A stretch of DNA of 64,000 nucleotides from Lachnospiraceae bacterium (GTDB lineage Bacteria; Bacillota; Clostridia; Lachnospirales; Lachnospiraceae), in the NCBI GenBank assembly GCA_024696825.1, contig JAILGL010000096.1, positions 1 to 64,000 on the forward strand. The letters are read 5' to 3'. This document shows, one piece after another, positions 25,654 through 32,344 of this stretch. Each line of letters starts with the position of its first letter. The stretch's first letter is position 1. Position numbers and translations under genes: made by a program. Below the pieces are notes generated by a model. It did not search any database. It was not told the origin of the DNA and worked only from the letters and a program-made list of their open reading frames with translations.

Positions 25654-26412
25654 TTACACTCCAAGCACACCAAGATACCAATTCATAATTAATTCACCCA
25701 CAAATATCGCTATAAATAAGCCTCCCGCAAGATACGGTCCAAAAGCAAGTTTATGCTCTGCCCCCTGTACCTTCATCCTTATTAAATGTATAACAGATCC
25801 AAGTATGCATCCTATTAAAAAGCCCACAACAGTACACTTCCAGCCAAGTAAAAGTCCTGCACCAGCCATAAGCTTAATATCCCCACCACCCATAGCTCTA
25901 CCGGTGGTCACAAGGAAAATAATTAATAAAAACGCACTAATAGAGAACATACCTATTATATGTTCCCTAAAATTCTTATAATCCACCGCAGTGGACACTA
26001 TACCAAGTATGAATATAAAAATGTTAAAAGAATCTGGTATTATATACATTCTCCAATCCACAACAGCTATCGCGATAAGAGCAGTTGTAAAAAGGCATAA
26101 TAACATACTCTGTACATTTATACCATTAAAAATAAATATTAATGTATAACAAACACCATTAATCCCCTCAACCAAAGGATACTGCAATGATATGTGCTCT
26201 CCACACTTTCTACACTTACCTTTTAGAAAGATATATGAGAATAAAGGAAATAAATCATACCATCTAAGCTTATATCCACACTTCATACAATGAGAACTTG
26301 GAATTATACTCTCCTCACTAGGAATTCTCAAAATACATACATTAGAAAAACTACCTATGACTATTCCATAAAAAAAAGCCAATATATAAATAGCTATCTC
26401 TATAGGTTGCAT
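25654..26412 (-). CDS. pilD: Prepilin peptidase (A24 family)
   Basis: GSFSNVCILRIPSEESII, CMKCGYKL...CRKCGEHIS zinc cysteines, MGGGDIKLMAGAG motif. Confidence 0.93.
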   Translation of the reverse strand: MQPIEIAIYILAFFYGIVIGSFSNVCILRIPSEESIIPSSHCMKCGYKLRWYDLFPLFSYIFLKGKCRKCGEHISLQYPLVEGINGVCYTLIFIFNGINVQSMLLCLFTTALIAIAVVDWRMYIIPDSFNIFIFILGIVSTAVDYKNFREHIIGMFSISAFLLIIFLVTTGRAMGGGDIKLMAGAGLLLGWKCTVVGFLIGCILGSVIHLIRMKVQGAEHKLAFGPYLAGGLFIAIFVGELIMNWYLGVLGV

Positions 26413-26489
26413 AAGTTAAATCTCCTTCTAATTAAAGTATGTATAATCACAAAAAAACAAGGGTAAATATGTAAACACAACGAAAACTT

Positions 26490-26550
26490 TAGATAGGACC
26501 AGCCTGCCAAGTGACCGGTCCATTACAGTCCGTATGTACAGACATATCTA
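26490..26550 (-). other. Predicted three-way-junction structured RNA between pilA and pilD
   Basis: Closing stem TAGATA/TATCTA (6/6), hairpins GGACCAG/CCGGTCC-type (one wobble) and GTCCGT/ACAGAC-type (one wobble). Confidence 0.5.
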
Positions 26551-26596
26551 CCCTCTTAAATTTAATTTAAATTACTATATCTAAGTAAACAAAAGA

Positions 26597-27091
26597 TTAC
26601 TCTGAAATAGCCTCCATGTTCTTATCAAGGTCAGCCTTTGTCTTATTATTAGATGCAGCTACATAAGTAACAACCTGTCCCTTTGAGTCAGCAGGACCCT
26701 TAGCTGTTCCATCAGCACTGTAAGCAGTATAAATACCAAGACCTGAAGCTTTGAAAGCTTTTGACTTAAACTTAGCCTGAATCTGAGCTGCTGTTGCATT
26801 ATCCATAAGGTCAGGAAGGTTTTCCTTAAGTGTTGTACCAATAGTAGTATCATAATCCTGGTCAAATGAAGCAACTGCTGCATCATTCTGAGCGATAGCA
26901 GATACAACTGCAGTTGTAACTGTTGATAACTGCTGCTGATCTTTAGACTTACGTGACTTCTCCATATAAGGAATAACCTGGCTAGCTACGATACCAACAA
27001 GGATAGCCATAATTGCAATAACGATAATTAACTCTACAAGAGAGAAACCTTTTTTACTATTTTCTTTTAACTTTGCTACATAATTTCTCAT
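26597..27091 (-). CDS. pilA: Major type IV pilin (prepilin)
   Basis: KKGFSLVELIIVIAIMAILVGIVASQVIPYMEKSR class III signal; 164 aa. Confidence 0.9.
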   Translation of the reverse strand: MRNYVAKLKENSKKGFSLVELIIVIAIMAILVGIVASQVIPYMEKSRKSKDQQQLSTVTTAVVSAIAQNDAAVASFDQDYDTTIGTTLKENLPDLMDNATAAQIQAKFKSKAFKASGLGIYTAYSADGTAKGPADSKGQVVTYVAASNNKTKADLDKNMEAISE

Positions 27092-27159
27092 ACTTTTAAT
27101 CTCCTTTAAATTAAATTATTTATCTTAAACTGTTCTTGGCAACAGTTAGGATACATTTT

Positions 27160-28368
27160 TTATGCATTCTCAACAGCTGAGTAAATACTGAGCATAGGAA
27201 GCATAACTGCACCGATAATTGGTACTACTATGAGAGCCATAACTATAATAATAACTGGCTCTAATACTGTTGATATAGTCTGTGTCGCACGCTCAACTTC
27301 TTCTTCATAGAAATCAGCACAACGATCAAGCATCTCTTCAACATTACCTGTTTCCTCGCCAATTCTTGTCATCTGATAAAGAAGTGGTGGGAACACTCCA
27401 CTAGCTTCAAGAGGCTGACTTAAAGGTACACCTCTTTCTACATCTTCTTTTGCATCCTGAATAACCGCCTGAATAACTCTGTTGCTCATAACCTTACCAC
27501 ATATCTCTATAGCATTTACAAGTGGTATACCACTAGCTGTAAGAGTACTCATGGTACGAGCAAATCTAGCAGATGCAGATTTTATACTAAGATCTCCTAT
27601 AAGAGGAAACTTAAGTGTCATTCTACCGATTGCCATAGCTCCGTCATCCGTTTGTTTCCAAGCATTAATCGCTATAACAATAGCAACTATAACTATAAGA
27701 ATAATATACCAGGAATGCTGAACTGCCTTACTGAGTGCCACAACTGCAAGTGTAAGTGCAGGAAGCTTAGCTCCGGCTTCATCAAAAGTCTCCTGGAATG
27801 AAGGAACAACCTTTACAAGCATTATGATTACAACACCGATAATAACTACAAGAAGTACTACCGGATAAATAAGAGCTGATGTAACCATGTTCTTAACCTT
27901 ATTATCTTTTTCAAACTGCTCAGCCATTCGAATAAAGGAAGTTTCCAAACTACCACTGGCCTCACCGGCTTCAATCATGTTAATAAGAATCTCCGGGAAA
28001 ACTGTTGGATACTGTGAAAAAGCTCCTGCTAAAGTCTCACCCTTTTCTACAAGGATACGACAATTCTTAACTGCTTCCTTAAGTCTCTTATTACTAGACT
28101 GATCTTCCATCATACCTAAAGCCTGAATAATAGTAACACCTGCATGAAGAATACTTGCCATCTGAGTACAGAACATCGACAAGTCCTTAGCTGGTACACC
28201 ACCACCTATAGTAATCTCACTATCAAGAGCACTAGGTACTCTTATCTCTACAGGAATGAGTCCTTCAGCTTTAAGTGCTGATTTTACGGCATCTTCATTA
28301 CCGGCCTCTATCTGGCCTTTTTTCTTCTTACCCTCTGGCGTAAGGGCTGTATAAACAAATTTTGCCAC
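27160..28368 (-). CDS. pilC: Type II secretion F / PilC-family inner-membrane platform protein
   Basis: Two T2SSF repeats, FCTQMASILHAGVTIIQAL, RIGEETGNVEEML. Confidence 0.93.
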   Translation of the reverse strand: MAKFVYTALTPEGKKKKGQIEAGNEDAVKSALKAEGLIPVEIRVPSALDSEITIGGGVPAKDLSMFCTQMASILHAGVTIIQALGMMEDQSSNKRLKEAVKNCRILVEKGETLAGAFSQYPTVFPEILINMIEAGEASGSLETSFIRMAEQFEKDNKVKNMVTSALIYPVVLLVVIIGVVIIMLVKVVPSFQETFDEAGAKLPALTLAVVALSKAVQHSWYIILIVIVAIVIAINAWKQTDDGAMAIGRMTLKFPLIGDLSIKSASARFARTMSTLTASGIPLVNAIEICGKVMSNRVIQAVIQDAKEDVERGVPLSQPLEASGVFPPLLYQMTRIGEETGNVEEMLDRCADFYEEEVERATQTISTVLEPVIIIVMALIVVPIIGAVMLPMLSIYSAVENA

Positions 28369-28677: not shown

Positions 28678-28765
28678 GGAGAGTTAGCGAAGTGGTCATA
28701 ACGCGCCGCACTCGAAATGCGGTCACCATTCACTTGGTACGAGGGTTCGAATCCCTCACTCTCCG
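28678..28765 (+). tRNA. tRNA-Ser (CGA)
   Basis: Acceptor GGAGAGT/ACTCTCC, long variable arm, anticodon loop CTCGAAA, T-loop GTTCGAATC. Confidence 0.95.
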
Positions 28766-28843: not shown

Positions 28844-28927
28844 GCGGAAGTGCTGGAATTGGCAGACAGGCATGATTCAGGTTCATGTGTTGGTAACGAC
28901 GTGTGGGTTCAAATCCCATCTTCCGCA
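28844..28927 (+). tRNA. tRNA-Leu (CAG), CCA not fully encoded
   Basis: Acceptor GCGGAAG/CTTCCGC, anticodon stem CATGA/TCATG with loop TTCAGGT, variable arm, T-loop GTTCAAATC. Confidence 0.93.
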
Positions 28928-28929
28928 TA

Positions 28930-28965
28930 AATAGAGGGTCCCTATTTCATAGGGGCCCTCTATTT
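28930..28965 (+). terminator. Terminator-like hairpin after tRNA-Leu
   Basis: AATAGAGGGTCCCTA...TAGGGGCCCTCTATT stem. Confidence 0.65.
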
Positions 28966-28969
28966 ATGT

Positions 28970-29009
28970 GCACGAGCTCTTTGAAGCCAGTGGCTTCAAA
29001 GTCTCGTGC
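28970..29009. repeat. Nested inverted repeat GCACGAG-CT-CTTTGAAGCCA-G-TGGCTTCAAAG-T-CTCGTGC
   Basis: 7 + 11 bp arms read directly. Confidence 0.8.
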
Positions 29010-29061
29010 AGCTGGTGCTGCACTCGGTCGGCGCAGAACCGATGTCCACCGGACATCGTGC
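29000..29061. repeat. 62-bp direct repeat, copy 1
   Basis: AGTCTCGTGCAGCTGGTGCTGCACTCGGTCGGCGCAGAACCGATGTCCACCGGACATCGTGC, identical to 29241-29302. Confidence 0.95.
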
Positions 29062-29062
29062 G

Positions 29063-29207
29063 CCCCATCTTCCGCATTGTGTACCACTACGTTATGGTAA
29101 AAGAATAGGCGCCTTCGGTCGGTATAACCCCGATTTTCCGCATTGTATACCACTACGTTATGGTAAAAGAATAGGCGCCTTCTGTCGGTATAACCCCGAT
29201 CTTCCGC
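29063..29207. repeat. Tandem ~65/66-bp repeat, each unit bounded by CCCCgATYTTCCGC (tRNA-3'-end-like)
   Basis: CCCCATCTTCCGC at 29063, CCCCGATTTTCCGC at 29128, CCCCGATCTTCCGC at 29194; shared TTGTRYACCACYACKTTATGGTAAAA. Confidence 0.85.
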
Positions 29208-29240
29208 TTTGTACACCACCACTTTATGGTAAAATCAAAT

Positions 29241-29509: not shown

Positions 29510-32344
29510 TCACGTTAGTTTTATTTTAACTGTTACGGTTTTCGTGTAGGCTTTATAGTATTCGTCTCCGGCGGCTTTTAACTTTACTTTGATTTTTAGT
29601 GTCCTTCCTTTTTGGGCCTTTTTATATTTTTTAACCGTTATTATTCCCTTTTTGTTTATGGTTAGATATTTGTTAGAGCCTTTTTTAACCCTTGTATAGG
29701 TAAGAGTTCCGACTGAATTTTTAACTACTATTGCCTTTTTAACCTTTTGAGCCTTCTTTTTAAGCTTTGAAGCTTTCACCTTTTTAGTTTTAACCTTCAC
29801 CGTCACGGATTGCTTCTTCTTTTCTGAAGAGGTTTTTGAATCAGATGAAGCTGAAGGTGAGGCTGAAGTATCCGGTGATACAGACGGTAACGCTGAGTTC
29901 TGTGGATCTATGGATGTTGATGGAGACGAGGTTGTTTCCGGTGAACCAGACACTGTTGGTAAAATTGAGGCTCCCGGTTCACTTGTCTCTTCTGGAGAAT
30001 CTGAGGCTTTCGGTTCTCCAGATTCACTTGGCTCTTCCGTCTCTTTTTGATAACCTGGATCATCCGTCGCATCTGGCTCAGTCTTATCACATGTACGAGA
30101 TGCAATTATCACTATTTCTTTTTCAGGATTTTCTGCTGCTTCAGGTTCCATATTAGTATATCCTATAATACGAGTCGAAGTTATGTATTTATTACTGTCA
30201 AAATCATAGTTAAATCTATAGCCAAATTCAGCTTTTACATAAACCTTGCAATAATACGTCTTTCCATATTCAACTTTTTGATCCCTATCTGTTATCATAC
30301 CATCTTCTAAACTATACCATTCAATATCACATATATCTACTGTACCATCATTATTAGCACTGCATGAGCAAGGAAATCCATAACCGTCTATCAAATCATC
30401 GATATAGAAAGATATATGATCCAGATAATCCACAAAATCAATTTCTATATTATTTAAAACTGTATTTCCATCCTCTGCAATTTCTATTTCATTCCATTCC
30501 TCCTCTGTTCCATTATAGTAAACATATTTTAAATCATTTACTAAACAAAAAGCATCTTCTGAAATAGATTTTACCCCACTTCCAATATAAAGCTTTTCAA
30601 AATTCGATCCTTCGAAGGCTGCATAACCTATAATTTTTAATGTGTCAGGTAAATGATACTCATTTATTTCATGACAATCCGAAAAAGCATAACTTAGTAT
30701 GATTTTAACGGGATATCCCTCTATATATTCCGGCACATATAATATTTCACTCTCTTCATTAGTTCCATATATATGAACTTCATTGTTTATTATTTGATAA
30801 CTTAATTCATGTCCTTCATTATATACCACCTTACTTTCATCCTCTAAAATGTCATTATATCCACCAATGTCTATTTTATCAAAATTTTCCTTTGTGGAGG
30901 CATATTTTACACTAACAATTTTATTGGCGTACTCAAAGGCAGAATCTCCTATATAAACAACCGTTTCAGGTATATATACATTTTTTACTTCAGTTTCAGT
31001 AAAAGTCTCATCATTTATACTTGTAACAGGATAATCATCAATTTCTTCAGGTATGTTAGCTACTGTGGTGGTTCCGATATATTTAACTATTTCTACTACA
31101 CCACTATCTTCATTTATCCGATATATGAAATCTTCAGTTGTCTTTGTATCTGAGTAATCAGGTGCAGCCTTGCATACAAAGTCCACAAATATACAAGCCT
31201 TTTCTTTAGGGTCTGTATCCATAAGTAATACCGCTTTTCCTGTAGCATAACCATTATTAACAGTGACAGAAATATTTGGTATTTCTACTTCATCTGAAAT
31301 TGTTGTACCAAATTTAAACTGCCTTGCCGCCTTTATAAATATTTTTGCCCTATACTTTTTACCCACTTCAAAAGGATTGCCATTCTGGTTACCATCAGGA
31401 TCATCTGTCATATTAATCCATTTCACTCCCTCAAACACACAGTTGGCACTTGTTTTTATATTTGCCCTTGGCTCTTCCCCATCAACCGGAGCTCCCAAAT
31501 TATATATGGTCACCATATTAACTGTTTCTGCATAATGCATCTTTACACTGTTAAGAACTGTATTTTTAGCACTCTCAATGTAAATCTTATTCCACTCATT
31601 TTTATAACCGTTATAATAAATATCCGTCAGGTAATTCATATTATTAAATACACTTCCTCTAATAATTTTTACACCTGAACCAATATATATTTTTTCAATT
31701 TTAGAACTATCAAAAGCTCCATAACCTATAAATTCCAGAGAATCAGGAAGATAACACTCCTTAACATTTAAACATCCTGCTAAAGCCATATAATCAATAC
31801 CTGTTACAGGCAGATACTCAATGGTTTCAGGTATATTTAATGTCTTTACACTATCATTGGTATCATATATTCTTATTTTCTCTTCTATTTTTCTATAGCT
31901 TAATACTCCACCATAGTTGTAAACCATATCACATTCATCAATATAATAACTATTATATATATTTTCACTAATTGCTTCCCAGTCACTTATAGTTGAACCA
32001 TAACAAATGAGTATTTCCGAGCAGTCATTATCACCAAATATTGACTCACCAATTACTTCAATGGTTTTAGGTATTATTATTTTTTTAAAATCAACACCAG
32101 AAAAGGCCTGGTCAGCTATTTCAGTTACTTTATGCCCATCAATTTCTTCCGGTATATAAATCCTTTCATCAGAACCAATATACTTTGTAATTGTAGCCTC
32201 ACTATTAGCACCACCATAATCATATTCAAAATATTCATTAGAAGCGCTATCTCCAGCCTTAGCTTCTTTAGGCGAAATCACAGTAAAGCCTGAAATCATC
32301 GCAAATGTCAATAAGATACTTACCATTTTTTTAAATCTTTTCAT
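29510..32344 (-). CDS. Secreted BspA-like leucine-rich-repeat (LRR_5) surface protein
   Basis: Signal peptide; repeats such as IPEEIDGHKVTEIADQAFSGVDFKKIIIPKTIEVIGESIF; S/T/P/E-rich linker; Lys-rich C-terminal domain. Confidence 0.85.
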   Translation of the reverse strand: MKRFKKMVSILLTFAMISGFTVISPKEAKAGDSASNEYFEYDYGGANSEATITKYIGSDERIYIPEEIDGHKVTEIADQAFSGVDFKKIIIPKTIEVIGESIFGDNDCSEILICYGSTISDWEAISENIYNSYYIDECDMVYNYGGVLSYRKIEEKIRIYDTNDSVKTLNIPETIEYLPVTGIDYMALAGCLNVKECYLPDSLEFIGYGAFDSSKIEKIYIGSGVKIIRGSVFNNMNYLTDIYYNGYKNEWNKIYIESAKNTVLNSVKMHYAETVNMVTIYNLGAPVDGEEPRANIKTSANCVFEGVKWINMTDDPDGNQNGNPFEVGKKYRAKIFIKAARQFKFGTTISDEVEIPNISVTVNNGYATGKAVLLMDTDPKEKACIFVDFVCKAAPDYSDTKTTEDFIYRINEDSGVVEIVKYIGTTTVANIPEEIDDYPVTSINDETFTETEVKNVYIPETVVYIGDSAFEYANKIVSVKYASTKENFDKIDIGGYNDILEDESKVVYNEGHELSYQIINNEVHIYGTNEESEILYVPEYIEGYPVKIILSYAFSDCHEINEYHLPDTLKIIGYAAFEGSNFEKLYIGSGVKSISEDAFCLVNDLKYVYYNGTEEEWNEIEIAEDGNTVLNNIEIDFVDYLDHISFYIDDLIDGYGFPCSCSANNDGTVDICDIEWYSLEDGMITDRDQKVEYGKTYYCKVYVKAEFGYRFNYDFDSNKYITSTRIIGYTNMEPEAAENPEKEIVIIASRTCDKTEPDATDDPGYQKETEEPSESGEPKASDSPEETSEPGASILPTVSGSPETTSSPSTSIDPQNSALPSVSPDTSASPSASSDSKTSSEKKKQSVTVKVKTKKVKASKLKKKAQKVKKAIVVKNSVGTLTYTRVKKGSNKYLTINKKGIITVKKYKKAQKGRTLKIKVKLKAAGDEYYKAYTKTVTVKIKLT

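Follow-up and report, generated by a model that had tools for sequence, protein, structure and literature searches.

In pilus operons the genes for pilin and for the assembly proteins are neighbours, yet the pilin subunit must be made in large excess; how Gram-positive type IV pilus operons achieve this is, to our knowledge, mostly not understood. The question arises at a type IV pilus operon in the 64,000-nt stretch of Lachnospiraceae DNA analysed here (the window), in which pilC lies 5' and pilD 3' of the major pilin gene pilA, and which runs on to pilM/N-like genes (Table 1). The same genome contains an RNase Y gene and RNase J-type genes. The 184-nt spacer between pilA and pilD includes a 61-nt segment that had been flagged as a candidate three-way-junction RNA (the original prediction). 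What could an RNA structure at this position do for the pilin message? We propose that the flagged element is probably the 3' half of a long-range loop-loop pairing that brackets the pilin cistron and marks or stabilises the pilA message.

Table 1. Features of the pilin locus. Positions count from the first nucleotide of the window.
Feature	Position	Strand	Evidence or remark
pilC-like inner membrane protein, gene upstream of pilA	27160..28368	(-)	PF00482
5' partner hairpin, pilC-pilA spacer	27121..27153	(-)	MFE fold, z -2.5
Leader loop GCCAAG	27135-27140	(-)	kissing 7-mer UGCCAAG at 27135-27141
pilA, major pilin, cistron inside the proposed bracket	26597..27091	(-)	N-terminal methylation motif PF07963
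Whole rod-shaped 3' element	26459..26555	(-)	MFE in context; basal helix 26555-26542/26472-26459
Three-way junction, alternative, possibly transient fold	26490..26550	(-)	folding
18-codon ORF MSVHTDCNGPVTWQAGPI (followed by stop) within the element	26489..26545	(-)	sequence; rejected as gene
3' partner, apical hairpin GGACCGGUC-ACUUGGCA-GGCUGGUCC	26496..26521	(-)	pairing probability 0.9997
Apical loop of 3' partner	26505-26512	(-)	kissing 7-mer CUUGGCA at 26505-26511
TTGTTTTTTT tract (T7), terminator-like, directly 3' of the rod	26451..26460	(-)	sequence and folds
pilD, prepilin peptidase	25654..26412	(-)	PF06750, PF01478

The 61-nt sequence is present as quoted at 26490-26550 of the minus strand and, taken alone, does fold into a three-way junction (-23.5 kcal/mol, z -3.3). 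In its context, however, a rod is preferred: when folded together with 131 nt of context, the RNA takes the rod as its best structure (-41.8 kcal/mol, z -4.3), and forcing the junction gives -30.1 kcal/mol, about 12 kcal/mol worse, with a probability of 3e-9 for the junction closing helix. The junction is the best fold solely for transcription prefixes of about 80-100 nt and for this reason may be a transient folding intermediate. Only the right-hand hairpin, with the loop ACUUGGCA, is stable in both rod and junction. The original prediction had also stated that no T tract follows and had set aside a simple terminator. The basal helix of the rod ends in GGG/CCC and runs directly into TTGTTTTTTT, so the terminator-like reading is open again. 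With a stable stem and a U tract immediately after it, the element is a predicted intrinsic terminator; a simple terminator scan, restricted to loops of 3-8 nt and short stems, did not list the rod. What sets the element apart from intrinsic terminators, with which it shares the stable hairpin followed by a T tract, is the very long, AU-containing rod and an invariant apical loop that matches a loop in the pilA leader.

Two genomes of the same genus, G002 (L125/L069) and G003 (L072/L070), have the gene order of the window and, in the same spacer, a rod of the same architecture (z -5.7 and -5.4), with U-rich tracts 3' of the rods in the same place as TTGTTTTTTT. The apical loop ACUUGGCA is identical in the window, G002, and G003, while the stems differ: the 5' arms of the apical hairpin are GGACCGGUC, GGAUGCC, and GGAUGUCCC, respectively, each with a matching 3' arm. 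An RNA structure under selection in the spacer between pilA and pilD is supported, in line with the original prediction. Neither G002 nor G003 keeps the left hairpin of the junction or its 6-bp closing helix. Because the stems diverge, a BLAST search with the spacer against 41 relatives returned short chance matches only. No further copies of the element were found in its own genome.

Scanning for hairpins around the CUUGGCA motif revealed a leader hairpin about 30 nt 5' of the pilA start; its loop, UGCCAAG, is exactly complementary to the CUUGGCA of the 3' apical loop. The loop-loop duplex was computed at -11.4 kcal/mol. Complementarity of at least 6 contiguous nucleotides in the two loops, the threshold for kissing loops, is also present in G002 (8 bp) and G003 (6 bp), so that each of the three genus members whose locus is complete has both hairpins and complementary loops; in a fourth member, G001, the 5' hairpin is kept and the contig ends inside pilA. 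The leader hairpin occurs in the four same-genus and seven more distant genomes, its loop being shared with 10 relatives. In an alignment of 11 sequences GCCAAG is invariant, and the stem arms vary yet still pair. Six of the more distant relatives have no such hairpin in the pilA-pilD spacer and carry a CUUGGC hairpin in pilD, about 285 nt from its start. Several genomes are metagenome-assembled, including Lachnospiraceae and Clostridium MAGs.

Loop complementarity was evaluated across the family using the strongest leader hairpin, chosen by folding energy, of each of 82 Lachnospiraceae pilin loci. Loci were scored for a Watson-Crick complement of at least 7 nt to the leader loop in successive 200-nt regions, and the expectation was taken from mispaired genomes. 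Within 200 nt past the pilin stop codon, a complement was found in 22 of the 82 loci, against 3.1 expected. The same loci yielded none in the upstream region (2.4 expected) and three and two in the pilin gene regions (2.2-2.3 expected). Farther downstream there were about 6 per 200 nt up to 800 nt (3 expected), and 1 beyond that (2.9 expected). Control matches in the same 200-nt regions numbered nine for direct repeats, four for reversed, and one for complement-only sequences. In a full-permutation control the proportion averaged 5.9% and never exceeded 13%, compared with 23/85 (27%) observed. Removal of the two commonest loop families left 7 complements against 2.2 expected (n 51, p 0.006), although p-values of these loop-complementarity tests are optimistic, as the loci are related by descent and kinship was ignored. 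About half of the loci have no partner of at least 6 nt within 200 nt; some of these may use other sites and others may lack the interaction. Nine usable loci of other families had no match of at least 7 nt within 200 nt, and the bracket is therefore perhaps lineage-specific.

Nine distinct loop/partner pairs distinguish the lineages, which amounts to compensatory change of the kind required for kissing loops. UGCCAAG/CUUGGCA is the pair of the window's genus, with the partner in the spacer. AUAGGGG/CCCCUAU forms the commonest class, its partner overlapping the start codon of pilD; in AGUAGGG/CCCUACU the partner lies inside pilD, near codon 100. The remaining pairs are AGAAGGG/CCCUUCU (L158), GGCGACUC/GAGUCGCC (L153, partner in a spacer hairpin), CCGAAACC/GGUUUCGG (L148), UUGAAACC/GGUUUCAA (L179), GAAACCA/UGGUUUC (L181), and UGUACCC/GGGUACA (L180). 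A CCTATG at the start of pilD and an AUAGGG in the leader tend to occur together (11/17 versus 2/55; Fisher p 2.6e-7, kinship ignored), and in one of the two exceptions the AUAGGG hairpin stands before an earlier tandem pilin. A genus sampled later retains the pair in 7/7 main pilin loci, five of them from new genomes, with changed stems; among the loops are UGUAGGGG, for which pairing is still possible through G-U. The partner sites vary between a spacer hairpin, the pilD start, the pilD interior, and positions before a second pilin or before pilM, and in some loci the downstream partner is not clearly within a hairpin loop. Across lineages, one thing stays constant: a pilin cistron lies between the two partners. 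As far as sequence comparison can tell, the two hairpins, their complementary loops, and the covariation of these loops across Lachnospiraceae form the supported part of our explanation.

Where the partner falls within pilD, the coding sequence itself can be examined. In the relatives with a CUUGGC hairpin in pilD, synonymous conservation of this gene peaks at the hairpin (IVFLANG; permutation P 0.03 for the 7-codon peak alone). A scan of synonymous conservation in group B pilD genes did not place the CCCUACU site at the top, in part because L198 deviates at that position. Separately, the pilD genes of L123, L124, L126, L127, and L105 have near-identical nucleotides at CTCCTGACATCCGCCCTT and AGGGGCAGATGCAGGAAGTG, besides the CUUGGC site, which suggests a larger RNA structure inside pilD. 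Near codon 100 of pilD, L110, L170, L172, L174, L175, and L199 keep TCCCTACTCTACTG at the nucleotide level; it covers Ser-Leu-Leu-Tyr and ends TCTATTG in L199, and the pilin leader loop of these genomes contains GUAGGG.

Across Lachnospiraceae, a change in one loop is matched by a change in its partner, and we conclude from this that the 5' and 3' ends of the pilin message are probably paired. The leader loop UGCCAAG would bind the apical loop CUUGGCA of the terminator-like rod and place the pilin cistron in a closed RNA loop. Such a bracket would mark and protect a stable pilA message within the longer operon transcript and set it apart from the pilC and pilD portions. After a nearby cut by an endonuclease such as RNase Y, the 5' hairpin and its partner would resist trimming, and the rod with its T tract would end or slow transcription ahead of pilD. 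Pilin would then be abundant, and PilC and PilD scarce. We infer the pairing in the cell, the partial termination, and the enzymes involved, as well as the stabilisation; the original prediction had allowed for a processing site or a stabiliser at the 3' end of pilA mRNA, which comes close to this explanation. For the family as a whole, we lean slightly towards a bracket acting in cis: the leader hairpin would capture any site that happens to stand at the 3' border of the pilin cistron, be it a spacer hairpin, the next start codon, or a position inside the next gene, and make a closed-loop message, and the partner site would have been relocated repeatedly in evolution with the pairing kept. 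The loci with a partner inside pilD count against a bracket, as such a site would be disturbed by translating ribosomes. If true, the closed-loop bracket would be a general cis mechanism in a major gut family, and an example of a long-range mRNA interaction with a partner that moves between non-coding and coding positions. Single-locus RNA searches miss interactions whose partner site moves. In the papers that were searched, no report was found of pairing between a leader loop and a downstream site around a pilin gene.

The loop pairing could be real and yet serve mainly to repress pilD, with the leader hairpin covering or sequestering the pilD start and keeping prepilin peptidase low relative to pilin. 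The commonest class would suit this role, given that its partner CCCCUAUG, placed a few nucleotides past the Shine-Dalgarno sequence, overlaps the start codon of pilD. In the window's genus, however, the partner sits some 100 nt ahead of the pilD start and leaves the ribosome site of this gene free, and in other lineages it is 90-100 codons or so inside pilD, before a second pilin, or before pilM. Since the enclosed pilin is constant and the 3' site variable, we favour stabilisation of the pilin message over general repression of pilD, which we consider possible but unlikely. It is improbable that the 3' element acts simply as a partial intrinsic terminator or an attenuator of the usual kind and matches the leader loop by accident. 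This would account for the long rod, its GGG/CCC base, the T7 tract, and the U-rich tracts after the G002 and G003 rods, but not for an apical loop that stays invariant as its stems change and matches the leader loop, nor for a surplus of loop complements across the family that is limited to the region after the pilin. Terminator function as such is compatible with the kissing model.

Strong conservation of leader loops within lineages (AUAGGG, GCCAAG) could also mean that each loop is bound separately by a protein or a trans-acting RNA and not by the other loop. This is very unlikely, as the downstream site differs between lineages in parallel with the leader loop, and a single outside ligand needs no such change. 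At the DNA level, the same 7-bp core is present at both sites in inverted orientation, with inverted-repeat arms, as if a recombinase inverted or exchanged the pilin gene; within a single genome, however, the arms of one site bear no relation to those of the other, with self-pairing alone being kept, and the cores move to start codons and coding positions, which leaves this reading hardly any weight. A ligand-sensing junction, another suggestion of the original prediction, we regard as extremely doubtful: it could appeal to the local fold of the isolated 61 nt and of the short transcription prefixes, but the junction is neither the fold in context nor conserved in its core, and Rfam covariance models gave no match at the gathering score and only one chance lncRNA hit when E values up to 5 were allowed. 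Finally, the stretch has an ATG with AAGAGGG upstream and a stop exactly at the hairpin end, and might encode an 18-residue peptide; neither frame nor sequence is kept in G002 or G003, and we rejected this ORF as a gene, the peptide being scarcely credible. The original prediction holds for an RNA structure in the spacer, without the junction as functional fold or ligand sensing; it did not include the leader hairpin with its complementary loop, the T-tract-flanked rod, or the family-wide loop covariation.

Our preferred reading, the bracket around the pilin cistron, has partial parallels in known systems. In E. coli fimbrial operons of the papA type, differential segmental mRNA stability makes the major subunit abundant. 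The intercistronic stem-loops and the abundance of the major subunit resemble the present case; the papA-type system is RNase E-based and is not known to have a loop-loop bracket. In S. aureus icaR, the 5' and 3' UTRs of one mRNA pair over the cistron, as proposed here, but the pairing takes in the Shine-Dalgarno sequence and leads to repression and RNase III cleavage; it is not known as a loop-loop bracket kept by covariation across a family. The nearest precedent from experiment is the pilA2 gene of Clostridium perfringens, also a major pilin gene in a pil operon with a leader hairpin, a predicted 5' stem-loop that is weak (-4.6 kcal/mol); RNase Y cuts the 5' UTR, releasing a longer-lived monocistronic mRNA from the polycistronic operon transcript (PMC7395162). 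The window resembles this arrangement in part, having a hairpin in the major-pilin leader inside a pil operon, and by analogy a longer-lived monocistronic pilin mRNA might arise here from the polycistronic transcript. Unlike our proposal, the passages on pilA2 describe no pairing between the leader loop and a downstream site, and pilD is the first gene of that operon (PMC7395162).

The genome of the window has a second pilin-like gene (G000:C132, L103 2111-2707) with a similar N-terminus and without an obvious GCCAAG leader hairpin. In the window, a small ORF at 28947-29222 (-) adjoins two tRNA genes (28678-28765 and 28844-28927) and contains a repeated VVYxAEDRGYTDRRRLFFYHN unit; it is possibly a DNA repeat and not a gene. 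At 29510-32344 (-), a 944-residue protein is encoded, with leucine-rich-repeat-like segments, a Ser/Thr/Pro-rich stretch, and a Lys-rich C-terminus, which looks like a secreted surface protein.
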